Source: Amanita rubescens (taxonomy: Eukaryota; Basidiomycota; Agaricomycetes; Agaricales; Amanitaceae). Taken from it: 64,000 nt of DNA. This document shows positions 3,750 through 30,532 of this stretch, one piece after another. Positions within the stretch are counted from its first letter, which is position 1. The number at the start of each line of letters is the position of its first letter. Both the position numbers and the translations under genes were made by a program. The notes beneath the pieces are model-generated. The model ran no database searches. It worked only from the letters and a program-made list of their open reading frames with translations, and was not told the DNA's origin. Where the stretch lies: NCBI GenBank assembly GCA_015039365.1, contig WION01000045.1:186001-250000 (forward strand). Direction: 5' to 3'.

Positions 3750-4594
3750 GTTACCGGTCAGCCTGCAACAATTTTGGATCAACAGAGAACACCGCCTAAC
3801 CGTGCTACAAGAGGAACAAGAGGACATTATTATCTAGATCACATCGCTATCTACAACGACCCTAAGGACCACCTTTGGAAATATTCGAAAGACCACAGTC
3901 TTGTACCAACGTCAGAGTTTTGGATACCACAGAGAGCCAATAGACCACCCAACAACGCATTCTATCATCGATTCAACGACAAATACTACCTCCTAGGATT
4001 TGAAGTCGAATTCGACGAAAACACCAAACGTTGGGGAGGATATAACCCAGGCCCTGAATCAGAACTCACATACGAATTCATACCAGACAATTTCTTCAAA
4101 GGACCAAAGTGGATAGAAGGAAACCCAGATAACTTGCCCGAAAACCTACAGCACAGAAGCGCAGTCTCTACACCGAAAGCAGCAGTCAAAACTACACCGA
4201 AAGGTAAAACTTTTGGAGTAAAAGAAGAAAGCGAATCAGGAACTGAATCAAGTGACGAAAACCCCGATCAGCAATTCGAAAGTTCCAGTGACCTTTCCGA
4301 GTTGGAAGACAAAACTGTTCCAGACTTACTTAGCCCAATCGATTTCAACCCGTTTGAAACAGAACAGGAGAAACCGAATTCCCCAGGACTTCAGTACATC
4401 GAAGTCGATCCTAAACCCAATCCTAGTCCAGGACCACCAGTACCACCACAGAAACCGCCTACACCACCTCCAGAACCACCAATAGCTACAATGACGATGC
4501 CAGCAATACAACCGATTCCTAGTCTCTTAGGAGAAATCCCTACCTTCACAGGGAAACGATCTCAAGCACAGGATTTCATAGATCGAATGGAGCT
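3750..4594 (+). pseudogene. Chromovirus A1 gag, 5' part (cut by inversion)
   Basis: The frame opens after the stop at 3747-3749 and runs without an ATG through a long N-terminal region (HYYLDHIAIYNDPKDHLW, GFEVEFDENTKRWGGYNPG), an acidic/serine stretch, a proline-rich linker (PPTPPPEPP) and the gag core start (PSLLGEIPTFTGKRSQ, QDFIDRMEL). Homology to A2 stops at base 4594. The missing continuation (FLDLNPGRINTDRLKIG) begins at 30160 on the minus strand. Gag forms the particle that packages element RNA. How translation starts without an ATG is unclear: a spliced leader or a non-AUG start are both possible. Confidence 0.88.
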
Positions 4595-5805
4595 CAGACG
4601 CCTGGGACTTTGCAGGTATGTCCACCTCTGTTCTGCAAATCTCTTACTCAAGTGTTGATGCAGGCCATACTTTTGCTGACATACCGCACCATTGTCGTCA
4701 ATCTGGAAGTTCTGATGCATGAAAACAGAATTTTCGAGCAATTATTCAAGAATAAAACATTTATGAGCTCTGTGATAAGCATCATCATCGACGAAGCACA
4801 TTGCATATCCCAATGGGGTTCATTTTGCCCCAAATATTGTGAACTTGGACACCTACGGTACCTTCAGCGATACCCCTGCACTATAATGGCGACATCCGCT
4901 ACGCTTACTCCGAGTGTTATCAAAGACATCAAGAACGTTCTCAGCCTTCGTGAAGAAAATATATTCTTTTCTCAATGCCCTGTCGATCGCTCGAATATCA
5001 ACATTGCCATTAGACCATTTTGCAATCCCCGCAATAGTTTTTTCGATCTTAAATTCTTGCTTCGAGACTGGCAGCCTGGTTCCCCACCTCCGCCAACTTT
5101 CATTGTCTTTTTCGACAGTATCCCTGAATCTGTCAGTGCTGGTCGTTATCTCCATAGCCTTTTACCACTTGAATACAAAGACCGCATCATGTGGTTCAAT
5201 TCCGAGATGTCAGATCGATTCAAAACCCAACAAATGTCCAAGTTTGCAAAAGGCAAGGTTTGGGGCTTGATGGCCACGGATTCATTCGGAATGGTAAATT
5301 ATACTACGTATTTTTATTCTGAACATCACTGATATACGAGCAGGGAATGGATATACCAAATGTCATGACAATCATTAACTGGGGAACGTCATGTACTATA
5401 TCAACACTTTGGCAACGTTTTGGTCGATGCGTGTGTGACCAAGCGCTCGAGGGAGAAGCTATTCTCTTCACAGAGAAAGAGAACCTTGACCCAGAGCGCG
5501 AAAGGAAGGGTGAGAGAGCGAGGACACAGAAACGAGCTCCACAGCATGGCAAGACAGTCACATCCAATAAACATCAGAAGGCAGCCAATACTATCAAAAC
5601 GGAGGTGGAAGTTGTCGGCCCTGATGGATCGAGTAGCGATGAGCAGGAGGAAGTGGTAACGAAGCGGTCTGGCAAGAGCTCAAAGCAGTTAGACCGTGAC
5701 GTTGATGAGCTCATTAACGTGGGCCATCAAGGATACACTTGTCAGCGCATTCCCATCATGGCCGCATTTCAAAATGATCAAGCAGGTGTGTATCAGCAAC
5801 TGTAG
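4595..5805 (+). pseudogene. RecQ-type helicase, C-terminal half (cut by inversion)
   Basis: This is the 3' part of a RecQ-family DNA helicase gene, an ATP-driven 3'-5' unwinding enzyme. Two introns fit GT-AG: 4616-4663 and 5294-5343. Motif II is IIIDEAHCISQWG (about 4780-4815); motif III is MATSATLTPSVIKDI; the second RecA lobe follows (FIVFFDSIPESVSAGRYL, DRIMWFNSEMSDRFK); splicing the second intron gives SFGMGMDIPNV, then LWQRFGRCV, the RecQ motif VI region. A charged tail ends in a stop at 5805. There is no start codon: the ATP-binding half is at 30161-30532 on the minus strand. The two halves join in phase when 4595-30160 is flipped, sharing the bases CAG at the junction. The gene was already damaged (see the N-terminal half). 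Confidence 0.88.
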
Positions 5806-5959
5806 TCCTTCTCACTGTCCATTGTGATGCATAGCGGAGCAGTAGACAAATTGTATTCTGACATACGACGTACTACACCCAGTAGAACTATTCTTAGAAA
5901 CAATCTCCGCTCAAATGTCAGAAAATAACTTCTCTTTTTCGATCAAGTTGTGACAGCTT

Positions 5960-6065
5960 GGCAGCCCAGACGTTTGTTTACCAATGTTACATACCAGTCT
6001 CCCTGGAGCAAACATCTTACATAACATTCGTCAAGACTGCTCCGTGAGACTGGGAAGGAGTCTGA
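5960..6065 (+). repeat. RecQ-flanking repeat, copy 1
   Basis: A ~100-bp block (TTTGTTTACCAATGTTACAT ... GAGACTGGGAAGGAGTCTG) lies 150 bp downstream of the RecQ stop. Closely similar blocks sit at 30709-30810 (plus), upstream of the RecQ start, and at 7696-7810 (minus). In the pre-inversion arrangement copies 1 and 30709 face each other around the RecQ gene. The block contains the internal inverted motif CCAGTCTC/GAGACTGG. Confidence 0.75.
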
Positions 6066-6072
6066 TATATGT

Positions 6073-6560
6073 ACTGCTATCAAAACATACCTATCTCCCA
6101 AAGAAAAAGTTGAATTGCGAATGAATGAGGGCACTGATTGTCAAATGGATTGTGCAGCTGAAAAGAGCGTCGAAAAATGCTTTAAATAGAGCCCTGGTTG
6201 AAGGAGATCTGTTGAGAAACGGATGAGATATACTGCTATCAAAACATACCTATCTCCCAATGAAAAGTTGAATTGCGAATGAATGAAGGTGCCGATTGTC
6301 AAACAGATTGCGCAGCTGAAAAGAGCGTAATGCTTTAAATAGAGCCCTGGTTGAAGGAGATCCATCAAGAAACAGATGAGATATACTGCTATCAAAACAT
6401 ATCTATCTCCCAATGAAAAAGTTGAATTGCAAATGAATGAAGGTACTGATTGTCAAACGGATTGCGCAGCTGAAAAGAGTGTTGAAAATGCTCTAAGTAG
6501 AGTCCTGGTTGAAGGAAATCTGTTGAGAAATGGACAAGATGTACTGCTATCAAACATACA
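6073..6560 (+). repeat. Tandem repeat, three units of about 155 bp
   Basis: Units begin ACTGCTATCAAAACATAC at 6073, 6232, 6385 and (truncated) 6543, giving spacings of 159, 153 and 158 bp. Each unit holds GTTGAATTGC, GCTGAAAAGAGCGT and AGAGCCCTGGTTGAAGG. A single unit in the same outward orientation relative to RecQ is present at about 30820-30940, so the expansion happened on one side only. Confidence 0.85.
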
Positions 6561-6689
6561 ACATACCTGTCAAAAAAATGAAAAGTGTCACACTGTGACA
6601 ACCAGCTGCCACCTACCAGATTTGGAAGGCACGTTGAAATTTTGATGTGCTGGCCAGATTCTAACCCCTCTCCTTCCTCCTCCTTCAGA

Positions 6690-7110: not shown

Positions 7111-7125
7111 GACTACCTGGACTCC

Positions 7126-7312
7126 ACAATGACTTTCAACACAAGGAGTCCTCAGGAGTTCACAATGATGCCTGATTCCCATGGTCATGTGACAGGCCAC
7201 TCTGTGCACCAGCCTACAGGTATATAAGGAGAGGGCATCTACCACATATCCCCCAGCTTGCTGCTTCCCTTGGAGATAAGATTAGATGGATAGAGGCAAG
7301 CTTAGGTAAGCT
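7126..7312 (+). repeat. Promoter-like repeat module (TATA plus splice-donor-like motif)
   Basis: Carries AGGAGTCCTCAGGAGT, CATGGTCATGTGACAGGCCA, a TATA box (GGTATATAAGGAGAGGGCAT at about 7212), CCACATATCCCCCA and TAGGTAAGCTTAAG. A very similar module lies at 34083-34330 inside E2. It could be a worn LTR-like or MITE promoter region; no gene starts from it here. The 38-bp core near 7228 is repeated directly at 7669. Confidence 0.6.
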
Positions 7313-7668
7313 TAAGCAGCACTTTACACTCCAACCTCAGTCCAAGTCCAGTCCAAGTCCAGTCCAAGTGGAGTCTGAGTTCCGTCTGAGTTCTGTCTGA
7401 GTTCCGTCTGAGTTCCATCTGAGTTCCATCTGAGTTCCGTCTGAGTTCCGTCTGAGTTCTGTCTGAGTGAGTCCCATCTGAGTTCTGTCTGAATTCTGTC
7501 TGAGTTCCATCTGAGTGAGTCCCATCTGAGTTCCGTCTGAGTTCCATCTGAGTTCCGTCTGAGTTCTGTCTGAGTGAGTCCCATCTGAGTTCTGTCTGAA
7601 TTCCGTCTGAGTTCCATCTGAGTGAGTCCCATCTGAGTTCCATCTGAATTCTGTCTGAGTTCCGTCTG
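7313..7668 (+). repeat. TIR end with 10-bp subterminal array (element E3 fragment)
   Basis: TTTACACTCCAACC resembles the E1 terminus (TTTACACTCCCCCC). It is followed by about 300 bp of a 10-bp repeat, mostly TCTGAGTTCC with C/T/A variation and occasional GAGTGAGTCCC units. All three minus-strand frames are open across it only because the unit lacks stops; the repetitive peptides (NSDGTQTELR type) are not credible genes. No matching right end was found, so this is a fragment. Confidence 0.65.
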
Positions 7669-7695
7669 AGGGCATCTACCACATATCCCCCAGCT

Positions 7696-9949: not shown

Positions 9950-10356
9950 TGTTAAATATAGAATTATATTTATAGAATGATTAACTACTGATTGACTACA
10001 ATCAATATTACTCATATCGCTCACGTCATCCTTTATGTATGACATAGAGATGACATCATAATGACTTCATTATGATATCATGGTGACATCATGATAGACT
10101 CATGATCACACCTTATGGTGTGCTTAGCACGCCATATCTTCTCATCTATACTATACGCTTACACATATGTAGATACATATTTGTTCTCTCTTAGTATATA
10201 AACCTGTCCTGTATCGTAGAATAGGACAATCCATTCTCTTCCTCTTACTATCACTACTACGCCGAAGGGTAGTGTTAAGATCATATCGCAATAGGTAAGC
10301 TATTGCACCTGCTCATGCTGTGGACACGCTCTCGCGTAGACCTGTCTTCTTCGTCA
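9950..10356 (+). repeat. Copia 5' LTR
   Basis: 407 bp, TGTTAAATAT...TTCTTCGTCA. I find no difference from the 3' LTR at 17677-18083. The TATA box is TATATAAA at 10195-10202. The flanking duplication is AATAC (9945-9949 and 18084-18088). A splice-donor-like ATAG/GTAAGC lies at 10291-10300, within the transcribed part. Confidence 0.97.
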
Positions 10357-10368
10357 GGTTATGGGCCC
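10357..10368 (+). promoter_or_regulatory. Copia primer-binding site (initiator tRNA-Met half type)
   Basis: GGTTATGGGCCC directly follows the LTR. It is complementary to GGGCCCATAACC, the anticodon stem-loop sequence of eukaryotic initiator tRNA-Met, the internal tRNA fragment used as primer by Drosophila copia-like elements. Confidence 0.7.
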
Positions 10369-11254
10369 CGCCGTCGATATTGCCAGGACCCACATCGCTG
10401 CTCGCTTGCTCGTCATCCGACATGATGTCCCACTGGTATAGTATCGCAGCGAGCCTGATATGGTCTTATCATCTTGATATCACTAATTCCTTGATATGGC
10501 ATATGCGCTAATGACATGCGCCCGGACCCTAGGGCTTTAGGGGGATCTCCTAGACACCCAGGGATAAGGGTACTTCCTATGTTTCTCGACGCTGGCATGG
10601 CAACGTCGGCCCCCACAGAGTTATACTTGCCCTCTGTGATGTGACTGGGGTATTCATGCACGATATAACATCATAAGCCCCTAGAGGCTTTAAAATACAA
10701 TATGGCTCGTATATAGAAACTTCTAGTATAAAGGACGTGCTGACACCTCATTGTGGGTGGTACACGCAGTCTATTAAGGATGCGCCCTTAGGGACTCCTT
10801 TAGTCGGAATGATCGTTAGGATCATTCTAAGTTTGGGCTCTATGGTAATCCCATAATCCCATTTAGAAGTTTCATATTGATTACCGGTCGTGCTTATATA
10901 ATGGTCTGGGGGGTTTATGGACCAGACATTATTTCTATTTACAATCGCAACGGGTAAAACCGTGGTTCGCCCAAGAGTGCTTGAGCCAGCGATTGATTTT
11001 GCATGTCATTTACAGCATTCAGGGATAATCCGAGCTTTCAAGACCGAGTGGACCTGTGGACCTGAGCTTTATCTAAGCTTGGCTTGTAACTAAGTTACTC
11101 AGGGTCGGTTGGTTTAACCGAATATGGATTGTACTCGTAACCGAGGAACTCTATATAGTCTGACATTCTAGTCTATGGCACCCTGGTAACTTAATAAAGA
11201 CGAATTAGACTTTTAGCTTTAATTAAGCTTTAAGCTCATCAAATTCTCTTTTAG
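10369..11254 (+). other. Copia leader, probably intronic
   Basis: About 890 bp with no long frame and several ATGs. If the LTR donor at 10295 (G/GTAAGC) is joined to the acceptor TCTCTTTTAG ending at 11254, the leader is removed and the spliced mRNA has no ATG before 11808. The intron is inferred only. Confidence 0.4.
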
Positions 11255-11263
11255 GAAAGAAAA

Positions 11264-11806
11264 CTGGATTCCGAAACTAGTACTCCGTTACCAGTTTACG
11301 AAGCCGAAGGAGAATCATTTCCTCCTACCCGGAGATTACCTCCTTCTTACGACGCTCCAATCCCACCTTTTCCCTTAATCCTAGGGGATCGAACTTTTAT
11401 TGATACACCGGCACCTATCCCATCTTCGTCCTATTCCAGGACGATAGTTCGTGTTGTCAACCCTGACACCAGATTCGGTGTCACAACTCGTGGACCTGTC
11501 ACAGTTCACAATCGAAGAGATCACTTCCTAGCTGCACGACTTGAAAACGGTCGTACCTTGCAAGACGAAATAATACATCGTCGTCGACAAGAAGCTATTG
11601 AAGAAGGTGTTCCACCTACTTTAGATCTTTGGATTCCACCCAGGGGCACTTCAGTAGCCCAACACATAGCAAATAGGCGTACACGCCGTAATCTCGAAAG
11701 AGATAACCAAGAGGTCGAAAACCTCGAAAATCAAAGAAACTTTAGTTTCTTTTGGCGTCTTCTAACCGTCTATATCATAATCTTCACCTCCGCCTTCCTC
11801 GTCTAA
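11264..11806 (+). CDS. ATG-less open frame upstream of copia Gag-Pol, with hydrophobic C-terminus
   Basis: The frame opens after a stop ending at 11254 and runs to TAA 11804-11806. There is no ATG in any frame from 11221 to 11807. A CTG at 11264-11266 has a favourable context (A at -3, G at +4) and would give about 180 residues. The predicted protein is proline-rich at the start (PLPVYEAEGESFPPTRRLPP), basic in the middle (EIIHRRRQEAIEE, ANRRTRRNLERD) and ends in a hydrophobic segment (FFWRLLTVYIIIFTSAFLV), like a tail anchor. I do not recognise the family. It ends one base before the Gag-Pol ATG. Alternatives: an exon fused to an unseen upstream ATG, or a leader merely kept free of ATGs. Confidence 0.45.
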   Translation: MDSETSTPLPVYEAEGESFPPTRRLPPSYDAPIPPFPLILGDRTFIDTPAPIPSSSYSRTIVRVVNPDTRFGVTTRGPVTVHNRRDHFLAARLENGRTLQDEIIHRRRQEAIEEGVPPTLDLWIPPRGTSVAQHIANRRTRRNLERDNQEVENLENQRNFSFFWRLLTVYIIIFTSAFLV

Positions 11807-11807
11807 T

Positions 11808-14800
11808 ATGTCTAATGACTTGACGATTCCTAGTTCCATTCCCGTTTTGAATGGAACTAACTATAAAGAATGGGAACGCATGATGCGTTTCCTATTACAA
11901 ACAAAGGGACTATTTCAGTACCTTAAGGATGATTATATTCATCCTCCGCGGATTACTCTGCTACAACAATTCTTCATTGACACAGGTGTTCGTGCAGCCA
12001 TAACTGCACAACCTGCGGTAGCAGCAGTGGCCGCACATGGTGCACATCCAGCAACACCTGCAATCCCAGCCGTTGAGGGTGAACCGGCTATCACCCAACA
12101 AATGGTTGATGATGCAAAGGCCGTTAAAAAGGCTTTTGAAGATTGGGTTGTCGAGGATGATCGCATCCTCGGATCCATAAATATGAAATGTTCTGCTACC
12201 ATACAGCAGATCAATTCAGAAGTAAATGCCGCCAGAGTTTTATGGCGGAATTTAGCAAATCAATACGGTGTGACAACATCTGCCGGTATCTATAACGACT
12301 TCCAATTAGCCGTTACTTGGAAGTTTCAAGATAAAAAGGATCCCACACAATCCTTAAACGACCTCCTCGCCATTATAAACCGCTTATCATCTAGCGGAAT
12401 TGTATTGCCTGAAAATGTACAGGCAATGATTGTACTTTCAGCTGTCCCCCGTCATTGGGACAATTTTGCCGCTGTGGTTCTTGCCACAACAGAACCATCG
12501 GATCTTACGATCCAAGGGATACTTCCCTTAATTCAGAATGAGTGGCGCCGAAGGCACCCTGAATCTGCCGCGACGGCAAATACGTCGCAACAACAGCAGC
12601 AACCATGGCAACAAGTACGTGGTCGAGGACGAGGACGTGCTCGCGGACGTGGCTGCGGAGCAGGTCGAGGACGTGGGGGGAGGCCTTATTCTAGGCCTCC
12701 ACAAGGCGCTCAGACACCGGCTCCTACTGCTCCACCGGCAAATCAAAATTGGCCAGGTAAAGTTGAGGGCCAAACGCGTGGTCCTAACTGGGAGAGGAAC
12801 CGAGAACGCCGAAAGGCAGATGCAGCCGAGAAGAAGGCTGCCAAAGCCGCAGAACATACTATGAGTTCTGCGCATACCGTTGCCCGTATTGGGCCTTATG
12901 ACATCACTGAGCCAGTTGCCGGCTCTAGCAAAGGCAAACAAAGAGAAAAGGATGAACTGGACTTTGAGTCCTATAAATCGAACCAAGGAATGGGGATATC
13001 GTCAGACGATATCGACTATAAAAATATGGATATAGATCAGGAAGCTGAACTATATTATGACGATTATTACTATGAAGATAACGGCGAACAATGGTATGAA
13101 ACCATTAAGAAACTGGAAATGGCTAACTTTCTCTTTATAGAGGCAGCAATGAAAATGGTGTTCCCTAAATTGGGACATCATTGTCGTACTATAAATTCCT
13201 TCTTTGAACAATCTGTACTATATGATAGTATAAATTATAAAGAAAATTTAGACGAAAACTGCCTCATAAGAGATAAGTCGTGTGACACTGCCATTTATAA
13301 TGCAAATATGATCGAACGATCATATAATATTGGTAACATGTTTAAGAAACCTTTTACATGTTTAGCGGTCAATAAAAGAAAATTTAAGGATAAAGTACAT
13401 CCAACATGTCCTTGTCCGGAATGTGTAGAAAAACGTACTGGAGATACACTATGGATGTGTGACTCCGGTGCATCCGATCACTTTACCTTTAGTAGGAAAG
13501 ACTTCTCTGAATACAGAGAATTTCCTGCAAATGAAAACCACAGTGTTAAAACTGCTAATGGTTTAGATCGTCTTGAGGGACTTGGCACAGTTATTCTTGA
13601 ACACAAGTTATCCACAGGGGAAGTAACACTCGTAAAGCTCTTCCCGGTATTATATATGCCACGGGCAACTGCACGCTTGATTTCAAACGGCAGATTGATC
13701 CGACAAGGATTAACTTGTAAACAAGATGAAAAGATGGTAGTCTTTTCCTTTACAGACTCAGGTAGAACGTGTATCGAAGGACATTATCTTATGCCCGATG
13801 ATACATTAGTTTACGCTCGAGGTAGGATTATTATAATGAATCCTACACTGGTTTCCGGCCCTGGCTTAGCCAACAGGAATTCTAAATTAATTCTTGGAAG
13901 ACCGACAAAGAAACCAAACGCAGAGTCTATAGAAAAATTATTAGACTACGAAACCTGGCATAAACGTTTTGGTCATCCATCTAACGAAGTCTTTTCGAAG
14001 ATACCGTTAAATGTCAATGGATGGAAAGAAGTTACACTTCCAGAAGGAAAACTACGTTGTGAAGGTTGTCTAAAAGGCAAAATGAAGGCAAAACCTTATA
14101 AACTGTCTTCAAAGAGAGCTACTCGTCCCTTTGAGTTACTCCATATGGATCTTATGACCGTACCGGCCATATCTTACCACAAATACAAATATATTGGTGT
14201 TATCGTTGACGATTTCACCTCGTATACGTGGATTGGCTTATTAAAAACCAAAGATCAAACTCTAGAATATTTTACCAGATGGTATAATGAGTTTGTAGAT
14301 CCTAAACAACCTATTTCTCACCTCCGTTCTGATCGAGGGGGGGAATTTGTAAATAAAGCCTTTGAAGAATTCCTTAAATCCAAAGGAATTAAACATCAAC
14401 AGACAGCTCCTTACACCCCACAACAAAATGGTCGCGTTGAACGCATGAATCAGACTTTGTCAGACAAAGCTGAGGCTATGCGATTAGACGCAGGATGTCC
14501 GAAATCTTGGTGGGAGTTCTCATTCAGAACGGCTGTGCATGTGTACAACCGCACTCCCCTAAAACGGACTAAATGGAAGACCCCTCTTGAAAATCTTCTT
14601 AATAAAAAACCAGACGTATCATACTTTCGAGTATTTGGATGTGAAGCCTGGGTATTTATCCCTGATCAACGGAGACCGGATAAGCTGTCCGAGAAATCCG
14701 TTTTATGTACTTTTGTAGGATATGAATCAGGAACCAAAGGCTATAGGTTCATGACGTCGACAAACACACTGGTCATATCCTCCCAGGCTACATTCTTTGA

Positions 14801-17654
14801 AAACAGGTTTCCGCGCAAAGGAAAGACTGCAGATATAATTACTGAAGATCTTGGTCCGATCTGGGAGGCGATTCCTCAAGAGGAACCTAACCGCCCTCCA
14901 CAAAATTTGGATTTAGATAACTTACTCCCAGAGAACCGTAGACGTTCTCCGAGCCGTAGACGCTCACCAAGTTTGGATCGAAGGGGTGCATCTCCTGATC
15001 GACAGCAGTCAGACCCTTCTGATGATTCAAACGATGATGATGACGGTGATGAATTTGCCGATCGTCGAAGAGATTTCTTGGATGATAATATCCGAAGGCA
15101 AAGAGAAGAAAGAGAACAAGAAAGACGTGACAATTATCATAGACAACGCGATGATTGGAAAAAGGGTCAAGGAATTGATAAACAGTCTCGTTTACGAGAT
15201 CAATTCAAACGTCAAATGAGTGATATGTTTAAGAAACGTAAAACTCCTGAACCCTTTAGACGTACTCCCTCTCCACAAATAAAAGAGGAGACTCCTGTTC
15301 CTTCTAGGCCTATAACTCCGATACCATATGTATCTAGGCCACCTTCACCTCGTAGTCCTATGGATGAAGATAATCCCTTCTCTTTGAATCAAAGAGATCA
15401 TGATGAAATAGAAAACCCATTTATGACGGATCGAGAATTTGATCAATTTGAACAATGTCAAAGAGATCGTTTTAGAGAATTTGCTCAGAGACCTAGACCT
15501 CCTCCACCGATCATATCTGATCCTGGTCCACCCTCTGTACAAATAGGTCCTCGCCGTTCTGGTCGTTTTCCAGTTCCAAGGGTACAAAGAGACAACGCGT
15601 ATGGAGATAAAACTCCTGCACAGATAGAAGCTGAAATTCAGCAAAAGCGAGATGCTTTACGAGAGCAGTTAAAAGATAAAACTCCGAGTTCTTCAACTCA
15701 GGATCCACCGTCAGCAGACAGGAACCCTGATAGAATGAATGAATCTGCCTCTCTACTCAAAGAAATCTTCGCTTTAAAGTCTGAATTAAAATCTGCAGAA
15801 CAAGATCATTTAACCCGAATGATTAATGAATCTGGAAATGAATTACTTCATTTTCTTCTAAAAGCGGCTGTCCCCCTTGTGGATAATATTCCATATGACT
15901 ATAGAGATATATCTAAAATGCGCTCCAGTAATCCTCAATTGTATAAACAATGGAAGATTGCAATGGATGACGAATTTAAATCTCTTCAATCTAGAGATAT
16001 TTGGGAGTTAGTTGATCTTCCAAAAGGACGAAACCTAATCAGATGTCGTTGGGTTTTCGACTTAAAAACCGATGGACGCAAAAAAGCTCGCGTCGTAGCT
16101 AAAGGTTTTAGTCAACGTCCCGGATTAGATTACGACGAAACATTCTCGCCTGTAGCGAGATATGAAACAATCCGAATACTTCTGGCCACATCAGTGCTTG
16201 AAAACTGGGATATACAAGCCCTAGATGTAAAAACTGCCTTCTTATATGGCGATCTTGATGAAGATATTTACATGGCCCAGCCAGAAGGTTTCGTTGTAAA
16301 AGGACAAGAATCTAAAGTATATAGGCTGAGGAAAGCCATATATGGATTGAAACAGGCATCATATGCCTGGAATAAACAAGCTGATAAATCGTTGAAATCA
16401 TTGCATTTCGAGCGATGCTTGTCTGATTCTGGCGTTTACGTTCGTAAAGGCAAGAATACTATTACGATATGCATATTGTATGTCGACGATATACTCTTTA
16501 TGGGAAATGACGATTCCACCATTGTATCCATTAAAAAGAAATTTATGGAGATGTGGGAATGTCGTGATCTTGGAAAGATCAAAGAGTATTTACGAATCCA
16601 AGTCAATTACAACCGTGATTTAGGATTCTTAGTTATAGATCAAGGTCCTTATGCCTTGAAGGTTGTCAAGCGATTTGGACTTGAAGATTGCAAGTCTGTA
16701 CGCACACCGTTACCTGCTGGGTATGCTCCTATAAAGAATGAAGGAGAATGCACACCACAGGAATGTTCTTATTATCAACAGATAATAGGATCCCTTCTAT
16801 ATCTAGCCTTAGGAACTAGGCCTGATATAATCTATGCAGTAATTTTGATGTCCCAATTTTCATCAAACCCGTCCCAAGAACACATTCAAAAAGCTTTGTA
16901 TATAGTCAAATACATTGCTCATACCTTAAACGTCAAAATCGTTTATAGCGCCAAAGGCAATAATAAATTTAGAGCCTACGCTGACGCTGACTGGGCCGCT
17001 GATCGTAATACACGACGATCTATAAACGGTTATGTCTTAATGTTAGCTGGTGGTGCGGTAGCTTGGACAAGTAGAAAACAAAAGACTGTAGCTCTGTCTT
17101 CGACTGAAGCGGAATACATATCTTTATCAGATGCTGCAAGACAGATTGCATGGGTTGAAAATCTATTTTACGAAATAGGTGCACCCATTAAAAGCATCTT
17201 ACTTAGCGTAGATAACCAAGGCGCTATATTTTGGGCACAAAATCCTGCACAAGAACATCGTTCCAAACACATCGATATTTGCTATCATTTCGTTCGCGAG
17301 TTGATCGAGACTAAAAAGGTAGTCCTCGAATATATACCAACAAACGAACAGAATGCGGATCTCATGACTAAGAATTTATCCTTTGAAAAGGTCAAATTCT
17401 TTAGAGAACGATTGGGACTTTCCTTAGAAGAATATCCGACTTCTACAAATGCATTAATCAAGAGACCAGATCGATTAGAGACTGAGGAAATCCGTGATCT
17501 GACGAAATTAATTCTTGATTGGCAAAATCTTGAATTAGATGGTATTGATCGTCTATCACACAAGAAGTTGATGGAACTTCTTGATGGTCTTATTGATCAA
17601 CAGGAATCGGATATAGATCCCTTCTATGATGAGAACATCATAGACTTTAAATAA
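11808..17654 (+). CDS. Copia Gag-Pol polyprotein, 1948 aa
   Basis: One continuous frame. Gag occupies about residues 1-260; instead of a CCHC zinc knuckle there is an arginine/glycine-rich run near 270-298 (GRGRGRARGRGCG). The aspartic protease motif is CDSGASDHF near 552. The integrase zinc region has WHKRFGHPS near 717 and RCEGCLKGK near 750; the core has LLHMDLMT (about 780), LRSDRGGEF (about 841) and NGRVERMNQ (about 878), a DD35E spacing. A charged, serine/arginine-rich insert (about 1040-1300) makes the protein longer than the usual ~1400 residues. RT shows RCRWVFDLKTDG, ALDVKTAFLYGDL and LYVDDILF (about 1558); RNase H shows YADADWAADRNTRRS and VALSSTEAEYISLS. The proteins process themselves, copy the RNA and integrate the cDNA. 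No disabling change is seen. Confidence 0.97.
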   Translation: MSNDLTIPSSIPVLNGTNYKEWERMMRFLLQTKGLFQYLKDDYIHPPRITLLQQFFIDTGVRAAITAQPAVAAVAAHGAHPATPAIPAVEGEPAITQQMVDDAKAVKKAFEDWVVEDDRILGSINMKCSATIQQINSEVNAARVLWRNLANQYGVTTSAGIYNDFQLAVTWKFQDKKDPTQSLNDLLAIINRLSSSGIVLPENVQAMIVLSAVPRHWDNFAAVVLATTEPSDLTIQGILPLIQNEWRRRHPESAATANTSQQQQQPWQQVRGRGRGRARGRGCGAGRGRGGRPYSRPPQGAQTPAPTAPPANQNWPGKVEGQTRGPNWERNRERRKADAAEKKAAKAAEHTMSSAHTVARIGPYDITEPVAGSSKGKQREKDELDFESYKSNQGMGISSDDIDYKNMDIDQEAELYYDDYYYEDNGEQWYETIKKLEMANFLFIEAAMKMVFPKLGHHCRTINSFFEQSVLYDSINYKENLDENCLIRDKSCDTAIYNANMIERSYNIGNMFKKPFTCLAVNKRKFKDKVHPTCPCPECVEKRTGDTLWMCDSGASDHFTFSRKDFSEYREFPANENHSVKTANGLDRLEGLGTVILEHKLSTGEVTLVKLFPVLYMPRATARLISNGRLIRQGLTCKQDEKMVVFSFTDSGRTCIEGHYLMPDDTLVYARGRIIIMNPTLVSGPGLANRNSKLILGRPTKKPNAESIEKLLDYETWHKRFGHPSNEVFSKIPLNVNGWKEVTLPEGKLRCEGCLKGKMKAKPYKLSSKRATRPFELLHMDLMTVPAISYHKYKYIGVIVDDFTSYTWIGLLKTKDQTLEYFTRWYNEFVDPKQPISHLRSDRGGEFVNKAFEEFLKSKGIKHQQTAPYTPQQNGRVERMNQTLSDKAEAMRLDAGCPKSWWEFSFRTAVHVYNRTPLKRTKWKTPLENLLNKKPDVSYFRVFGCEAWVFIPDQRRPDKLSEKSVLCTFVGYESGTKGYRFMTSTNTLVISSQATFFENRFPRKGKTADIITEDLGPIWEAIPQEEPNRPPQNLDLDNLLPENRRRSPSRRRSPSLDRRGASPDRQQSDPSDDSNDDDDGDEFADRRRDFLDDNIRRQREEREQERRDNYHRQRDDWKKGQGIDKQSRLRDQFKRQMSDMFKKRKTPEPFRRTPSPQIKEETPVPSRPITPIPYVSRPPSPRSPMDEDNPFSLNQRDHDEIENPFMTDREFDQFEQCQRDRFREFAQRPRPPPPIISDPGPPSVQIGPRRSGRFPVPRVQRDNAYGDKTPAQIEAEIQQKRDALREQLKDKTPSSSTQDPPSADRNPDRMNESASLLKEIFALKSELKSAEQDHLTRMINESGNELLHFLLKAAVPLVDNIPYDYRDISKMRSSNPQLYKQWKIAMDDEFKSLQSRDIWELVDLPKGRNLIRCRWVFDLKTDGRKKARVVAKGFSQRPGLDYDETFSPVARYETIRILLATSVLENWDIQALDVKTAFLYGDLDEDIYMAQPEGFVVKGQESKVYRLRKAIYGLKQASYAWNKQADKSLKSLHFERCLSDSGVYVRKGKNTITICILYVDDILFMGNDDSTIVSIKKKFMEMWECRDLGKIKEYLRIQVNYNRDLGFLVIDQGPYALKVVKRFGLEDCKSVRTPLPAGYAPIKNEGECTPQECSYYQQIIGSLLYLALGTRPDIIYAVILMSQFSSNPSQEHIQKALYIVKYIAHTLNVKIVYSAKGNNKFRAYADADWAADRNTRRSINGYVLMLAGGAVAWTSRKQKTVALSSTEAEYISLSDAARQIAWVENLFYEIGAPIKSILLSVDNQGAIFWAQNPAQEHRSKHIDICYHFVRELIETKKVVLEYIPTNEQNADLMTKNLSFEKVKFFRERLGLSLEEYPTSTNALIKRPDRLETEEIRDLTKLILDWQNLELDGIDRLSHKKLMELLDGLIDQQESDIDPFYDENIIDFK

Positions 17655-17659
17655 AGGAT

Positions 17660-17676
17660 ATCTAAGCGAAGGGGTG
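17660..17676 (+). promoter_or_regulatory. Copia polypurine tract
   Basis: AGCGAAGGGGTG immediately precedes the 3' LTR and would prime plus-strand DNA synthesis. Confidence 0.6.
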
Positions 17677-18083
17677 TGTTAAATATAGAATTATATTTAT
17701 AGAATGATTAACTACTGATTGACTACAATCAATATTACTCATATCGCTCACGTCATCCTTTATGTATGACATAGAGATGACATCATAATGACTTCATTAT
17801 GATATCATGGTGACATCATGATAGACTCATGATCACACCTTATGGTGTGCTTAGCACGCCATATCTTCTCATCTATACTATACGCTTACACATATGTAGA
17901 TACATATTTGTTCTCTCTTAGTATATAAACCTGTCCTGTATCGTAGAATAGGACAATCCATTCTCTTCCTCTTACTATCACTACTACGCCGAAGGGTAGT
18001 GTTAAGATCATATCGCAATAGGTAAGCTATTGCACCTGCTCATGCTGTGGACACGCTCTCGCGTAGACCTGTCTTCTTCGTCA
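17677..18083 (+). repeat. Copia 3' LTR
   Basis: 407 bp, no difference seen from the 5' LTR, followed by the target duplication AATAC at 18084-18088. Confidence 0.97.
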
Positions 18084-21575: not shown

Positions 21576-21576
21576 A

Positions 21577-23323
21577 TGACCTCGACATGATTGGTTAAAA
21601 CACCACGACCCAATCGTGAATTGGAAAACAGGCTCACTCCTTATGAAAAATTGCCCAGGTACATGCCATGTAGAAGGAGAGGACAACAACGCTATAAACA
21701 CTGAGGGCGATAACGAGACCAGTGGAACACATGAGTGGGAAGAGGGAGATAGACTGTTAGCGGTAATGGAAGACGAAGGATGAGTTGGGGGATAAGAGCC
21801 CACACGACCACGGCAACCGAAATAGCAGTAGCGAATCAAATAAAACGCGATGTGAAAAATATCGTACCTGCTCACTATTTGAGTCACCGGGAAGTGTTTG
21901 ACAAGGAGACGTTTGATGAACTACCAAAACGAGGAAGATGGGATCACGCGATCGAGTTGGTGCCTGGCGCCCAAGCAGTGGACTGCAAAATCTACCTGCT
22001 GAATAAGGAAGAACAGGGACAATTAGATGCGTTCCTGAAAGATAACTTGGAAACAGGGCAGATAAGAACCAGCAAATCTCCGATGGCATCGCTGTTCTTC
22101 TTCATTAAAAAGAAAGACGGGAAACTAAGACCGGTACAGGATTACCGAAAACTGAACGAGATGATGATAAAGAACCGATACCCGCTACCACTGATATCGG
22201 AACTAGTGGATCAACTCAGTCATGCAAAGATATTCTCGAAAATGGACATCAGATGGGGGTATAATAACATACGGATAAAGGAAGGGGATGAGTGGAAGGC
22301 AGCGTTCAGAATGAATAGAGGATTGTTCGAACCATTAGTAATGTTCTTTGGACTTACAAACTCACCGGCAACCTTTCAAACGATGATGAACGACATATTT
22401 AGAGAAGAGATAGCAGAAGGATGGGTGGTGATATACATGGATGACATATTAGTGTACTCTAAGGATGAAGAGACACATAAGCTACATGTGAATCGAATCC
22501 TGGAGAAACTAAAACGGTACAAATTGTCGTTGAAAGCGGAGAAATGTTGGTTTGATCAGAAGACAATCAAATTCCTAGGATTAATAATATCGCACGACTC
22601 CATACACATGGACAAAGCCAAAGTACAAGTGATATTGGATTGGCCCAGACCTACAAGTAAACGAGAATTACAACAATTCCTAGGATTCATAAACTTCTAT
22701 CGACGATTCATACGAGGGTTTGCGAAGATAGCCAAGTCTCTCACACGACTGACGGGAAAAGAAGGATGGATGTGGACGGTACTACTGTACAAGAGGAAGT
22801 GTTTGTAGGGTTGAAGATGAGAGTAGGAGAGGAAGTGGTATTGGCAATACCATCGGACAAGGGAAAATATCGAGTAGAGACGGATGCCTCGGATTTTGCT
22901 ATGGGAGCGGTATTATCTCAACAACAAGAAGACGGTACATGGAGACCAGTAGCGTTCATTTCAAAATCATTAAATCCCGCTGAAAGGGATTATGAAGTGT
23001 ACGATAAGGAATTATTGGCGGTCATGCATGCCCTATACGAATGGTCTCACTACCTGAAGGGAACGGAAGAACAGATTGAGATTCTAACCGACCACCAAAA
23101 TCTCACTTATTTCCGAAAACCCCAGAACGTCAATCAGAGACAAGCGCGATGGGTGTTGGATCTACAAGAATACAACTTCATCCTGAAACACAGACCTGGG
23201 AAGACCAATACCAAGGCCGATGTTTTATCTTGCAGAGCAGATCATGATAAAGGAGAAATGGATAACGAAGGGACAACACTGTTGAAGGAGGAATGTTTTA
23301 TACGAGTATGGGAAGAAGGAGAC
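21577..23323 (+). pseudogene. Chromovirus B pol (protease end, RT, RNase H)
   Basis: Homology begins within the protease region (HDWLKHHDPIVNWKTGSL near 21590) directly at the E1 end. A frame change is needed near 21780. Then RT is clean: MASLFFFIKKKDGKLRPVQD, KMDIRWGYNNIRIKEGDEW, MFFGLTNSPATFQTM and VVIYMDDILVYSKDEE. A frameshift near 22775 separates it from RNase H (VETDASDFAMGAVLSQQQ). The frame ends at VWEEGD where A1 inserted (GAGAC at 23319-23323). The rest is at 2761-3142 on the minus strand. Gag and the 5' LTR are missing. It is the same family as C. Confidence 0.9.
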
Positions 23324-23839
23324 TGTTATGATCACGTCAATCTCCTCCTACGATGTGTCCACGCTATGAGCGCTTGACAAAGTAGACTAAGTCCAACGGA
23401 CAAGTCAAACAATAGGTGAACGGATAAGCTAAGTAATAAGACGACTAGAAGAAGTCTTATACTTGAGAGCGATAATGAACGGAGTGTGTACGACGTTCTT
23501 TAGGTGAGATGAGGTGATATTGACAAGAACAAACTAAGTCAAACTTAAGGTTCGACGTTACAGTACATCGGTTTATATACATGTATGGAAACACAGCCGT
23601 ATCGTAAGTAGAACAAAGGTGATAGCAAGTATAGGTAAAACAGGGGGCATAGGGGATGGTACGCATATGAACAAGGGGTTGGACATAGGGTAAATGGAAT
23701 GGGGATCGATAAGGGAATGAGGTGGTCCGTTTGATGAACATAATGGGGATGTGACGAAGGGATAGGCATATACGAAAAAGTAAGCATGTCCGACGTGTCA
23801 TGTAATCATAATGTAGGAGTCCGTACCGTGTTTGTAACA
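23324..23839 (-). repeat. 3' LTR of split chromovirus A1
   Basis: 516 bp in minus orientation, TGTTACAAAC at 23839 to GATCATAACA at 23324. The outer flank 23319-23323 reads GTCTC on the minus strand, the same five bases that precede the 5' LTR at 3143. Confidence 0.95.
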
Positions 23840-23967
23840 CTAGCTCTCCTCTACGTTGTTGACCACAACAACAATATGCGGGTATCCTCTAGGTATCAGG
23901 GTTGTGGCGGGCGTCTTCATCATCGTAAGGATGATAGCCAGCTGAGTTGTCGATGAAGACGGCGAAG

Positions 23968-24345
23968 TCATTTGTCTTGGTTCCATCCTCCTGCATTCCA
24001 GTCAGTGGGTGTGTCCGTGTACATTTGGACGAGTTCTTCGTTGTTAGCCTCAAGCGAGTTGAGGAGTTTGTGGAGAACCTTAAGGCGTTGGTTCTCTTCT
24101 TTGAGGAGCTTGATGATGCGCTCCTTTGATTCGTCGTCGGGATGAGGGACTGTTGACGGTAGGGATGTGGCGGCGAAAAGCCGGACATGGGACTGGTAAT
24201 GGAGGAAATCCGAGATTTCCTGGTGAATGCGGGCAAGGCGTTCTCGACCGTTGAAGGCGCCAATGTTAAAGGCGGTGGGGGTGGTGGACGCTGTGGCATT
24301 GGAGATGGTGGGGGTCTGTTGGGTTTGTTCTGCGTTCCCTTCCAT
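23968..24345 (-). CDS. A1 accessory frame X3, 125 aa
   Basis: Overlaps the 3' end of X2 in another frame. Same length as in A2 and only nine residues differ of 125, against about 27 in the X2 frame over the same bases, so X3 is the better-conserved reading. It contains a leucine-rich, probably coiled-coil helix (KERIIKLLKEENQRLKVLHK, LLNSLEANNEELVQ). Function unknown. Confidence 0.65.
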   Translation of the reverse strand: MEGNAEQTQQTPTISNATASTTPTAFNIGAFNGRERLARIHQEISDFLHYQSHVRLFAATSLPSTVPHPDDESKERIIKLLKEENQRLKVLHKLLNSLEANNEELVQMYTDTPTDWNAGGWNQDK

Positions 24346-24889
24346 AGTCGGTAAAGGTTGTGTTGGGGAATGAGTGAACGTCCGAGGTTCTTAAATCTTT
24401 CAGCGGTCTGGGCGATGGGTGTGGAAGGTATAAGATTCTGATGGAGATCTAATTCCATCATGACGTGGGCAACTTCTTCATAGGCGTTGTGAGAGAGTTG
24501 CTGCGGTTTAGCTCCTTTGGTAAACAGATCTTCTGTCCATGCGGTAGTTCGTCTAGAAGATTCGGCGATCTCCTTGATTTGATCTGCTAGATCAGCTAAG
24601 GCGATTGCTCTGATTTCGGTTCTATTCGTAAGCTCCAAGATATGCTGTGGATCTGGTGCGATCCTGTGAGGGTCAAAGCTGTGATGGATGGCAACAAGAT
24701 CGTTGGGGTCGTCATTAAGGATGAATGGAGGGTGTATTTCATTCCTGACGTCTAAGATGGCTTGTTCGTAGAAGCGTTCTACGTCAGCGGTGAGGATTCG
24801 GCGTAAGAGGTCAATTCCGAATTGGTGGATGGTGCATCCATGAGAGAGTTTGGTGTACCATTCCATACGATCTAGGTTGGTCCAGATTT

Positions 24890-25597
24890 CTATAAGATCT
24901 GCGCAATGGTAGTTGTATCGTTCTCGAGCGTTGACGATGATTGCCTTGGTGAGTCTTGCGTCTGAAAGAATGCGCCAGAGTCTGGTAAGTCGTTCCAGTT
25001 CCTGAGAATTGATTGGCAGGCCAGAAAGTCTTTTAACATTGTCAATAGTCTTTCGCATGAGAGCTGAGCTGTTATAGTCTGCGAATGTCGTAAAGATTGT
25101 CTGAGGTTCAAGGGGAGTGATGTCTGCCATGATTCGGCGACTGCTAGGGCTAGTTTGATCGTTATTATCGCCTCTGTCGCGAAGATTGCCAGTTGGTTCC
25201 TTGTCGAATTTGGCAAAAGAGTTGGGGTTGTGATATATCTTTCACATGTTATCAAGTATTTTCCTAGTTCTCCTTGTATCTTCATTATGTCCTCCGTTAT
25301 CTTGATCTTCTGTGGTATCGTGAGGACTCGTAGCTCGGCTTGTTCTGGGTGAATCATCAGGTCGATTCTCTTTGTCAGAATCTGAAGCGCTGATATAAGG
25401 AACGAGACGTGGCCTATTAGGTTCGGTGATCGTTGTCCTTCCGTTAGCATCTGGATTATTGGATGTATCGGGGGATTCGACGGTGGTGGTGGTGTTGTCG
25501 TTGTTGTCTGGGTAAAGACTGAGTATATTGGCGGTTCCGGTGATGGTGCTCTCGTCGTTGTTGGTGAGATCGTAGGTGAGGTTCTTGTTGATTCCAT
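24890..25597 (-). CDS. A1 accessory frame X1, 235 aa
   Basis: Overlaps the 5' part of X2. Same length in A2, about 23 differences in 235 (10%), versus about 22 in 133 for the X2 frame in that stretch. The proline/threonine-rich start (PTTTRAPSPEPPIYSVF) is followed by a helical region (ILTKRIDLMIHPEQAELRVL, RELGKYLITCERYI type). No known family recognised. Confidence 0.65.
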   Translation of the reverse strand: MESTRTSPTISPTTTRAPSPEPPIYSVFTQTTTTTPPPPSNPPIHPIIQMLTEGQRSPNLIGHVSFLISALQILTKRIDLMIHPEQAELRVLTIPQKIKITEDIMKIQGELGKYLITCERYITTPTLLPNSTRNQLAIFATEAIITIKLALAVAESWQTSLPLNLRQSLRHSQTITAQLSCERLLTMLKDFLACQSILRNWNDLPDSGAFFQTQDSPRQSSSTLENDTTTIAQIL

Positions 25598-25643
25598 GAT
25601 TCATAGGTAGTTTCTGGGCGTTGTAGGTGTAATCTTTGCTCAT

Positions 25644-28600
25644 TCAGAGTTTCCTACGTTTCTTATATTTGTCAAGGATATCCTCGGCGTTTGACAAGTT
25701 CCTTTGGGGTTCCCAAGTGTTTTCGCTTGTATCATAGCCTTTCCATTTGACGAGAAACTGTAATTGACGTCCGATCTTTCGGTGTGCGAGAATAGCTTCT
25801 ATTTCGTATTCTTCTGATCCTTCTATCAGATCGGGTGGTGGACGTGTGTCGTTAGGTCCATGGAATTCTGTTTCTTTGAATGGTGATAGTAGACATGCGT
25901 GGAAAATGCTGTGTATCTTCCATTGTTTTGGTAAGTCTAATTGATAGGTGACAGGTCCTAAGATTTTCTTTATCTTGAAGGGTCCTTCTCGTTTGGGTGC
26001 GAGTTTACGTGATTGATAAGGAATGCGTAGGTTCTTTGAATCTAGCCAAACTTTTTCTCCTTCTTTGAACGGTTTTGAGTGTTTCATCGTTCGTTGTGCC
26101 ATTTTGAGGCGTGCAAGGTCGTGTGCTGCCAGAGCTTCTTCTCTTGCTTTGATTAGGAGTCTGATGCGTTCGTCTGCTACAGGGGTAGCTGATTGTTCTG
26201 TAACCTGGGGTAACGCTACAGGGTTTGATCCATACATGAGATAAAACGGTGATTGTTTCAGTTCTTCATGCGTTCTAGAATTATGAGCGAATTGTGCGAT
26301 AGGAAGTATCTTGTTCCATTTGTCTGGTTCATAGGCACAGAATATGCGGAGGTATACTTCAAGTATGGCGTTATAGTGTTCCGTTTGTCCATCTGTTTGA
26401 GGGTGAAAGGCGGTGCTCATCTTGTGTTTGATCTGAAGTGCGCTAGTTATCCCTTTGAAGACTTTTGCTGTGAATTGCGGTCCTCTGTCAGATATCATGA
26501 TGTCTGGTAATCCAAAGTTCTTGAAAACTTCTTTAATGTAGAGGTCGGCGGTTTCAGCTGATGTAATAGTTTTATTACAGGGACATAGAATTATTCCCTT
26601 TGAAAGTCCTTGGTTGACCACGACAAAGATAGAATCAAAACCGTCACTAGGCAGTAGATCGGTGATGAAATCCATAGTAATCTGTTGAAATGGTCGGTGT
26701 GCATGGGATTTAATCGGCATTAGGGGTGCGGCGGTGGGATGTGTATTAGGTTTCATCTGTTGACAGGTGAGGCACCCATCGATAAAAATTTTGACAAGTG
26801 TTGTCATTCTAGGCCACCAATAGTGTTCTCTTAGTAGGCTAAGTGTTTTGAAGAATCCGGGGTGTCCTGCACTCGGTGCTTCATGGTATTCTTTAATAAT
26901 AGATCGGCGAAGATCGGAGTTCATTGGAATGTATGCTTTGTTTTTGAATAGAATGATTCCGTTATCTTCAGTCCAATCGGTGATTGCTGTGCGGAGGGGC
27001 GCTGTTCCTTTCTCCTTTAAGCATCTTCTAATGGTTTCAGCAAACTCGTCAGTTTGAGTTGCGTTCTTTACTTGATCTCGGAGGTCTTCGGCGATGACTT
27101 GGATGAATAATGAGTCAGGGAGCATTGTGACTGTTTCGTCATCTTCTTCTCCATTGGTGTGATCTGGTCAGCGGGATAAGGCATCCGCTTGAGTTAGTTT
27201 TGCTCCGGGTACGTGAATTAGTTGGTAATTATATCTTGAGAGATTATTCCACCATCTTGCTTGTCTAGCTGTGAGACGTTGTGGTGCGCGGTAGTAGGTT
27301 AAGTTTTTGTGATCGCAATGTATAGTGAGTGTGTGTTCTGCTCCGAGCAGTAGGTATTTCCATTCGTCAAGGGCGTAAATTATAGCAAAGAGCTCTCGGT
27401 CGTAGATTTGCCAATTTCGTTCAGTAGGCGTAAGTGCGTGTGAGAGATATCCACAAGGGTGTAGGTCTCCGTTTTCGTCTTTCTGCATTAAGGCGGCTCC
27501 GACAGCCCATTTCGATGCGTCCGTTTCGAGTATGAAAGGTTGATTAACATCTGGCATCTTTAGTACTGGTGCTGTTACGAAACTTTCCTTTAATGAGTCG
27601 AAGGCGACTCTACATTCTAGTGTCCATTCCCATATCTTGTTTTTCTTTGTTAAGTCGTGAAGGGGTCGTGCGAGGTGCACAAATCCGGATATGAAACGTC
27701 TGTAGTAATTTCCAAATCCTAGAAACGAGCGTACTTGTTTAACTGTTGTTGGAGGGGGCCAGTCTCTGATTCCAGCGAGTTTTATTGGATCCATTTTTAT
27801 CGTGTCTTTCGTGATTATCATGCCTAAGAAGTCCACTTCTTCGGCAGCAAATTTGCATTTTTCAAGTTTCAGGTAAAGATCGTGTTCTTTTAGTTTTGCA
27901 AGTACTAGCTTTGTTCTTTTCTCGAGTTCTTGTTTGTTGCGCGCATGTATCAAGATGTCATCCATGTAAATGGCGATCCATCCTTCGTTCATGAAGTCTC
28001 TGAAGTAATCGTCCATCATAGCTTGAAATGTTGCGGGCGAATTGCGTAATCCAAAGAACATAACTGTTGGTTCGAATAGTCCTTTATTCGTGATAAATGC
28101 GGCTTTCCATTCGTCTCCTTCTTTGATACGAACATTGTTGTATCCCCATCTGATGTCTAGTTTCGTAAAGTATTGTGATCCTTTAAGTTGCAGCATCAGA
28201 TCGGATATGAGTGGTAAGGGGTAAGAGTTTGGTTTCGTATGTTCGTTCAAGTATCGGTAGTCTTGGCAGGGTCTGAGTGTTTTGCTATCCTTCTTTTCGA
28301 CATAAAAGAATGGCGCTGCCTGCGGAGATTTGGATGGTCGTATGTATCCTTTAGTTAGTTGTTCTTTGATCCATTCGTCAAGCGTATTTTGTTGTAATGG
28401 TGATATTGGGTAGATCTTCCCTTTCTTTGGTATAAAATCTTCGCGAAGTTCAATTGCGTGATCCCATGATCTGCGGTCTGGGAATCGTTCTGACGCTTGT
28501 TTTTCAAATATCTCTTTCCATTCGAGATACTCAGGAGGTAGCGCGACTTCCTTCTGATCGGTGTTGTACTTGTGTTCCATTTGTTGAGCTGGTGAGTAGC

Positions 28601-29261
28601 GATTAATCGTGATCTCGTCATAATCTTCTTCAGTCCATCTTCCCATGTCTTCAAATGGTAATTTCCAACGTAGACTCTTCTCTTCTGGTCCTTTGTGTGA
28701 CAACAAATACCGAATTACGACGTCTTCTTCCCATTTAGGCATTGCTTCTTCATCGAGTCGATGCAAGATGCTCCGTATTGATGCCTTCCATTCGTCTTCT
28801 TTGGAGTTACGGAACTCCAGAGTTCTATTCCTCCAGCTTATGATTGGGTCATGCTTCTCAAGCCACGGAAGCCCCAGTATCAAGTTTTGATCGCCAAGCG
28901 AAGTGACCAGGAACCATTTGGTCATCTTCTTTCCATTAATATTGATGGTGATCAAACACTTGTCAGAAATTTCTCCATTCGTGTTATATGTGCCGTCAAC
29001 GTTCTTGACTCAGATTGGTCTTGCGAGTTTCTTCTTTCTCCATTTGTGCGCGATTGATGAATTAATAAATAAACCTTCTGCACCGCTGTCGACCAGTGCA
29101 GTCATTGATTCAGTGTTGTCTTCGGTTTCAACTTCAAGAGGAATAGATAATCGATTGCTTGAAATAGAATGTACTATTACAGGTGATATCGAAAGATCGT
29201 CCTTTGGAGTTGAATCCGAAGTTATGGGACAAGCATCCACTGATATGTGTCCCACTGTCAA
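25644..29261 (-). pseudogene. A1 Pol (protease, RT, RNase H, integrase, chromodomain), two stops
   Basis: The frame overlaps the gag end at TTTTTGA. Protease LVDSGAEGLFINSS (about 29080), a TGA at 29010-29012, RT with FFGLRNSPATFQAMMDD and WIAIYMDDILIHARN (about 27960), RNase H FILETDASKWAVGAAL, a second TGA at 27168-27170 after QADALSR, then integrase (AGHPGFFKTLSLLREHYWWP, CLTCQQ, MISDRGPQF, HPQTDGQTE) and a C-terminal chromodomain (QFLVKWKGYDTSENTWEP). A2 has arginine (CGA) at both stop positions, so both are single C-to-T changes. A pol this long with a chromodomain marks a Tf1/sushi-type chromovirus. Confidence 0.92.
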
Positions 29262-30160
29262 AAATCCGGTTTGTCCGCGTTGATAAGGAGGTTGATGCGT
29301 TGATCTGGAGAGAGTTTCTTTAACATAGCGCGTATCGTTCTGTCGCTAGTATCTTCTTCTTCTTCTTGTTCTTGCTGGTTAGACTCTTCGACATCTTCAT
29401 AGTTACTGCCATCGTCATCCCTTTTGGTTGCTTGAATATGACGACCGTGTGCGAATTTCTTTCCTTTCTTTCCATTAAACTTCTTCTTCCCTTTGTAAGA
29501 TCCTTTATCCTTCCTCATGGGGCATTGTCCTGACATGTGGTCCGCTTTATGACAGATGAAACAAAGTCCATCGCGGATGTGTCGGGTTCGTTCATCTTTT
29601 GATAACGCGCCAAGGATTATTGCATCAAGATCCATATCCCATTCGTTTCGAGGGGGTTTGTGTGAAGATGTTCCTCCTCTGTTGGTTGCTAGAATGCCAA
29701 TACGTGTTTCGGCGTTGTATGCTCTGAGTGCTCCTTCATACCATTTGTCCAAGGTTTTGGGGTCTCTCATTACGACTGCTCTGTATGTGTTGGCGTCGAG
29801 TCCTTGTCCAAACATGTGGGTAGCGGCACTGCCTGTGATTCCAGCTTTCTTTATAAGTTCTTTGAATAAACCAACGTATTTTGGGATTGAGATTCGTTTT
29901 CCTTTCTTGTCTTTACGTTTTTGTAGCTGTACTAATTCTGTGTACGCGTTTCCGGGTGAATCTATTTCTTGCCAATTGTTGAGGAATCTAGTTTTAAATC
30001 CTGTCCAGTCGTTCCATGTTATTTCCGTCTTTGCTGCATCGTTAAGATCGTCGTTTTGATTGCGTCTCCAGTTCTCAGCTTTGTCGGTTATCATAGATAA
30101 TGTCAGTCCGATTTTAAGTCTATCTGTGTTGATGCGACCTGGATTGAGATCTAGAAATAG
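29258..30160 (-). pseudogene. A1 gag, 3' part
   Basis: Picks up at FLDLNPGRINTDRLKIG, the residue after the break at 4594. It includes NWRRNQNDDLND, a basic stretch, a CCHC knuckle (CFICHKADHMSGQC, about 29530-29570), lysine-rich and acidic tails (EEEEDTSDRTIRAMLKKL), ending NADKPDF-stop. The stop sits in GATTTTTGA, where a one-base backward slip would enter the protease frame. Confidence 0.88.
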
Positions 30161-30532
30161 CTGTATCTGCCGAAAGAAAAATTCCCTTGATTCCCACCTT
30201 CCCAAGCGTCTCTATGTTCTGCTGACCGAGTATGTTGAGCGGCGTTACTACAATCTAAACGCCATATGGACGAAAAAGCAGTGGGAGCCAGAATGCCAGA
30301 ATGTGAGCGTCTTGCCCATTCCTGTCCCAGCTATTGAAATCACGTCACAGTTGCCCTCGAGAACTGCTTGGCAGACATTGGCCTGCCATAGACACGGCCA
30401 CTTCCCAAGGACGTCGAAAGCTTTGTGTCGTATGTCATTGATCAATGGGATTGGTAAAACTTGATGGCTCCCAGCCCCGGGGCTCGCCGATGGTTCAGGG
30501 ATGCTCCCCCATGTGATATTACCATCACTCAT
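30161..30532 (-). pseudogene. RecQ-type helicase, N-terminal half
   Basis: Minus-strand start at 30532. Q-motif-like KAFDVLGKWPCLWQANV precedes the ATP-binding motif SIAGTGMGKTLTFW. An 8-bp tandem duplication (CCAGAATG at 30288-30295 and 30296-30303) shifts the frame right after it; in the shifted frame LPLLFRPYG is followed by a TAG and then IVVTPLNILG, the expected RecQ motif Ia. The sequence leaves RecQ at 30161, and the next RecQ codons are at 4595 on the plus strand. The gene was therefore a pseudogene apart from being cut by the inversion. Confidence 0.85.

Follow-up and report, generated by a model that had tools for sequence, protein, structure and literature searches.

The locus and its features

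The window analysed is the 64,000-nucleotide stretch C385:186001-250000 of an Amanita rubescens assembly (75.7 Mb in 786 contigs), and coordinates without a contig name refer to it. All comparisons were made between assembled contigs of this one assembly (C385, C236, C760, C245, C515 and C112). One copy of an LTR retrotransposon, A1, is found in two pieces on opposite strands, each of which abuts one part of a RecQ-like pseudogene. The features of the locus are as follows.

2764-3142, minus strand: older copy of element B, left of A1
3138-3142, plus strand: TSD of A1 (GTCTC), left copy
3143-4594, plus strand: 5' piece of A1 (5' LTR and start of gag), Ty3/gypsy with chromodomain
4591-4594, plus strand: junction J1, AGCT common to the gag and RecQ break sites
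4591-5332, plus strand: 3' part of the RecQ-like pseudogene, with the DEAH box
4595-30158, no strand: inverted segment (equivalent break placements 4590/30162 to 4594/30158)
21584-23322, plus strand: older copy of element B, part to the right of A1, flipped along with the segment
23319-23323, minus strand: TSD of A1 (GTCTC), right copy, inverted and 20 kb off
23324-30162, minus strand: remainder of the split A1 (rest of gag, pol, 3' LTR)
30159-30162, minus strand: junction J2, AGCT
30159-30442, minus strand: 5' part of the RecQ-like pseudogene (Walker A region, frame shifted)
33798-40808, no strand: second inversion, inverted in C760 (27528-34538) and C245, uninverted here and in C236
54866-63037, plus strand: unsplit copy of A1 with TSD ACCGG, used as the yardstick

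A1 has the integrase core, H2C2 zinc finger, chromodomain, LTRs (TGTTAC..ATAACA) and 5-bp TSD of a Ty3/gypsy chromovirus, and it occurs at dozens of places in the genome among the matches listed. The organisms named among the best 120 of 3858 matches to its pol protein were the mushroom-forming fungi Lyophyllum, Sparassis, Moniliophthora and Candolleomyces; the same 120 included one metagenome bin labelled Stellaceae (bacterial). The RecQ-like protein contains a DEAD/DEAH domain (profile match to PF00270, E 1.4e-7) and matches structure chains of RecQ, RECQ5, BLM, WRN and RECQ1, as a relative of these helicases should.

A separate array of tandem repeats with an 11-base unit and some 15-base steps lies at 7365-7681.

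A single flip mends four features

At J1, the plus-strand gag of A1 gives way to plus-strand RecQ, and at J2 minus-strand RecQ gives way to minus-strand gag. The plus-strand piece of A1 (3143-4594) aligns to 54866-56327 of the unsplit copy (93.6%), whereas the minus-strand piece, read from 30162 to 23324, aligns from 56324 of that copy onward. Hence, the break between the two pieces falls at a single point of A1, where they overlap by 4 bp (56324-56327). The RecQ halves behave in the same way: C760:40741-45284 (98%), and also a paralogue on C515 (93-96%), has minus-strand 30159 contiguous with plus-strand 4591.

The two LTRs of the split A1 are 98.3% alike. When the 5' LTR was searched against the genome, the only sequences to score above its partner among the best 40 of 434 candidates were the counterparts of this LTR on C760 and C236, and the next-best other copy was 96% alike. 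GTCTC adjoins both outer LTR ends. With a single copy of this TSD retained, the joined flanks of A1 align as one block to a young copy of the gypsy-like element B (875/875 bases, 86%, 2 gap columns), and both flanks are parts of one older copy of B that had served as the insertion site of A1. The alignments show that one flip of the segment restores A1, the RecQ-like reading, the GTCTC duplication and the older copy of B.

The young B element itself is 6.3 kb long (C385:182143-188432, the window part being 1-2432), has 259-bp LTRs that are 99.6% alike, and is absent from C236 and C760.

The first-pass annotation had placed the junctions at these sites and proposed that a single inversion had split a retrotransposon and a RecQ gene, both of which one flip would make contiguous. 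The alignments bear this out, and the proposal is strengthened by the split TSD, the split host element B and the contigs C236 and C760. The break pair that it gave, 4594/30160, is right as to location, but misses the diagonal of equivalent placements by 2 bp.

Inverted and uninverted copies in the assembly

A 401-base probe across J1 matched at full length only C385 and C236 (99%) among the best 40 of 54 candidates; its RecQ half alone was found in C760 (100%) and C515 (96%), and its gag half alone in many places. The J2 probe likewise matched C385 and C236 (99%) at full length among the best 40 of 54, with the RecQ half alone in C760 (99%) and the gag half alone in many contigs.

C236 has the inverted order with both junctions, and its later insertions differ from those of C385. 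C760 has the uninverted order with RecQ contiguous, and its flanks are colinear apart from the second inversion in the right flank. Read in reverse, C760 runs through the left flank and A1 to window position 4218, continues with 113 other bases and then from 21585 down to 4591, and goes on from 30159 upward. Small insertions private to C760 lie within this arrangement. Window 4219-4594, the remainder of A1 and its flank to 21586 are absent and the 113 other bases stand in their place, part of the segment, including the gag side of the break, having been lost by deletion. As that side is gone from C760, the unsplit gag reading was taken from other A1 copies.

The same segment thus stands in opposite orientations in C760 and C236 between colinear flanks, and the uninverted order that the earlier reading had proposed to look for elsewhere is present in the same assembly. 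Since other contigs carry both the flipped and the unflipped order, the inversion does not appear to be an artefact. To judge from the contig sequences, it is a real and polymorphic inversion of an ordinary rearrangement kind.

The inverted segment measures 25,564 bp in C385, in agreement with the 25.6 kb reported earlier for its present size, but without later insertions it comes to 17,425 bp in C385 and 17,485 bp in C236. An 8.1-kb copia-type element within it is absent from C236 and C760. This element was inserted after the flip, at which time the segment was about 17.4 kb long. The element (9950-18083) has a 1948-aa ORF and LTR stretches that are 100% alike over 407 bases, and its insertion is probably recent. 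C236 has a mobile element of its own, 2.4 kb long, inside the 3' LTR of A1 (C236:30927-33349; window 33798-36209). C385 lacks this insertion, the flanks of the element overlap by 10 bp, and more than 20 related starts are found in the genome.

A search of the contigs for the RNA polymerase domain PF00562 gave three gene loci as contig pairs and two contigs singly. This mostly paired occurrence suggests a two-haplotype assembly. Near-identical copies of the flanks of the inversion locus number three on the left and four on the right, whereas window 51700-53200 has two copies. The flank copies, which are distributed among C236, C385, C760 and C245, outnumber the twos of the three polymerase gene loci. 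One possibility is a duplicated locus, with C385 and C236 as the alleles of one copy and C760 and C245 as those of the other; alternatively, more than two nuclear types may be present.

The state of the RecQ-like gene

We read the RecQ frame in the window, in C760 and in C515. A single open frame crosses the break region in C515, whereas the window and C760 have the Walker A part in a different frame, followed by stops at the same place. Because the frame shift and the stop are common to the uninverted C760, the damage predates the inversion. The earlier claim that a RecQ gene was cut therefore holds as to the cut, but what was cut was, by this comparison, already a damaged gene.

We do not propose fusion proteins at the joints. 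The gag frame ends 64 bases beyond J1, and at J2 the RecQ frame has a stop at 30122-30120, while the gag frame is open only for a short distance up into RecQ.

The joint at base level

The uninverted RecQ of C760 reads GATAC-AGCT-CAGACG, in C515 AGCT precedes TGGACG, and the unsplit gag reads GGAGCT-ATTCC. J1 reads GGAGCT-CAGACG and J2 reads GATACAGCT-ATTTC. Relative to the C760 RecQ and the unsplit A1, AGCT is kept once per junction and no base has been gained or lost. Nine other A1 loci were examined at the gag break, and the exact probe was present in seven of them, with AGCT in six and AGTT in one; the unsplit copy in the window also has AGCT. By these alignments, the joint is a lossless one with 4 bp of microhomology.

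A few matching base pairs at both joints, here AGCT, are what is expected of microhomology end joining. When break pairs were drawn at random from three sequences, 200,000 times each, 1.7-1.8% had a match of at least 4 bp. A joint guided by homology is therefore favoured, although a chance of 1.7% is not extreme. Long inverted homology of the kind that mediates inversion between repeats was not found at the two break sites, which match over 4 bp. Ectopic recombination between A1 copies was also considered and rejected, as the second break is in RecQ and the sites share 4 bp only.

A second inversion of 7 kb

The left break of the second inversion lies inside a 1.8-kb stretch that is present in C236 and missing from C385. 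The bases shared at its breaks are ACCC/GGGT, with no gain and no loss, and a C run beside the joint eases short matches. Its junction in C760 is identical in C245 (401/401). C112 is continuous across the break stretch (93%), from which it follows that C760 and C245 are derived with respect to this inversion.

In the same region, C760 near 33968-33976 (window 40205-40250) has a 29-bp deletion between two copies of GTGAGGCTA.

Discussion

The comparisons establish the order and orientation of the pieces, the junction letters and the ancestral status of the uninverted order. The explanation that we favour, with a probability of about 0.9, is that a single intrachromosomal inversion split the gag of A1 and the RecQ-like pseudogene, and that the ends were rejoined crosswise at AGCT without gain or loss. 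One break fell inside gag and the other inside the pseudogene, about 10.6 kb past the 3' end of A1. The distance today, with the later copia-type element included, is 18.7 kb. As to the pathway, two double-strand breaks joined by end joining through the 4-bp match would be the most likely course.

An assembly misjoin that flipped the segment in C385 deserves attention in a region so rich in repeats, with A1 at the many places noted above. However, both junctions are also present in C236 together with private insertions and SNPs, and one of these SNPs, at window position 4584, separates C236 from C385 only 10 bases ahead of J1. A base-identical misjoin in two contigs is unlikely, and we consider this explanation very improbable. 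Still less credit is due to staggered breaks with fill-in, which the first-pass annotation had preferred, taking CT and CAG to be doubled at the junctions. These letters do stand there, but AGCT was already present at both sites before the flip, as seen in the RecQ of C760 and C515 and in the unsplit A1, so that nothing was duplicated. The proposal would be saved only by supposing changes in all of C760, C515 and the other A1 copies. A breakpoint duplication that is single in the ancestor was accordingly not found, AGCT standing once per site both before and after the flip. The lossless joint speaks against that mechanism in the same way. Two independent events, such as translocations or ectopic exchanges, come last in our estimate and can practically be discounted. 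Nothing favours them directly, whereas one flip mends A1, RecQ, the TSD and the older B copy together, the unflipped order stands in C760, and both junctions occur in C385 and C236 while no other contig has either in full (best 40 of 54 per junction).

The manner of rejoining is less certain. Topoisomerase II leaves 4-base 5' overhangs. Instead of ordinary end joining, the inversion could have arisen by template switching in the course of replication (two switches with 4-bp microhomology) or by an exchange of two topoisomerase II breaks whose 4-base overhangs match. We regard this as possible, if rather doubtful. Both inversions resolved at the locus are lossless and share 4 bp, which is in its favour, but they are two events only, neither pathway's specific sign was seen, and several diagonals have 4-bp matches at the C run that adjoins the second joint. 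Furthermore, one joint cannot separate end joining from template switching. A more general idea starts from the 4-bp inverted identity and zero loss of both resolved inversions: lossless inversions would arise in this fungus through the exchange of two breaks whose 4-base overhangs match, such as two topoisomerase II cleavages. We treat it as an improbable conjecture.

Single inversion with end joining, the reading that we prefer, has parallels elsewhere. PMC5080602 names cut-and-paste as one of three inversion mechanisms, and such two-break inversions are, like the present one, lossless with breakpoints outside long repeats. The present breaks differ in that they lie in a fungus, one in the gag of a retrotransposon and the other in a helicase pseudogene, and in that both joints have a 4-bp match. 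According to the same paper, inversions of Drosophila subobscura are similarly polymorphic, with sequenced breakpoints and cut genes. However, the staggered breaks described there leave duplications at the breakpoints, in contrast to the inversion described here, which has none. Human structural variants with 1-15 bp of microhomology are described in PMC12350158; the figure given there, 25,311 of 30,449, is for deletions, whereas the present case is a balanced inversion. In a literature search on fungal inversion breakpoints, no paper combining all the terms was found.

With respect to timing, the inversion would have followed the insertion of A1, whose LTRs are 1.7% apart, and would fall after the C760 line had split from that of C385 and C236, but before the latter two separated. 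Eight aligned segments with 32,858 sites were counted, indels and window 21586-30158 (missing in C760) being excluded. C385 and C236 differ at 69 of these sites, C385 and C760 at 151, and C236 and C760 at 146; private differences number 37 in C385, 32 in C236 and 114 in C760. Counts of this kind would be expected from a single origin of the inversion. The exception among the eight segments is the 5' part of A1 (1786 sites), in which C236 has 11 differences from C760 but 15 from C385. A single origin is most simply assumed, and gene conversion could blur the timing.

No new mechanism is established by these data, and the inversion is probably of little consequence, as the two things broken were a retrotransposon and a gene that was already damaged. 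Its value is that a polymorphism is resolved to the base within a single assembly that contains both orientations, that LTRs and SNPs allow relative dating, and that the joint is clean. The case illustrates how an inversion can be proved and dated through a transposon that it split.
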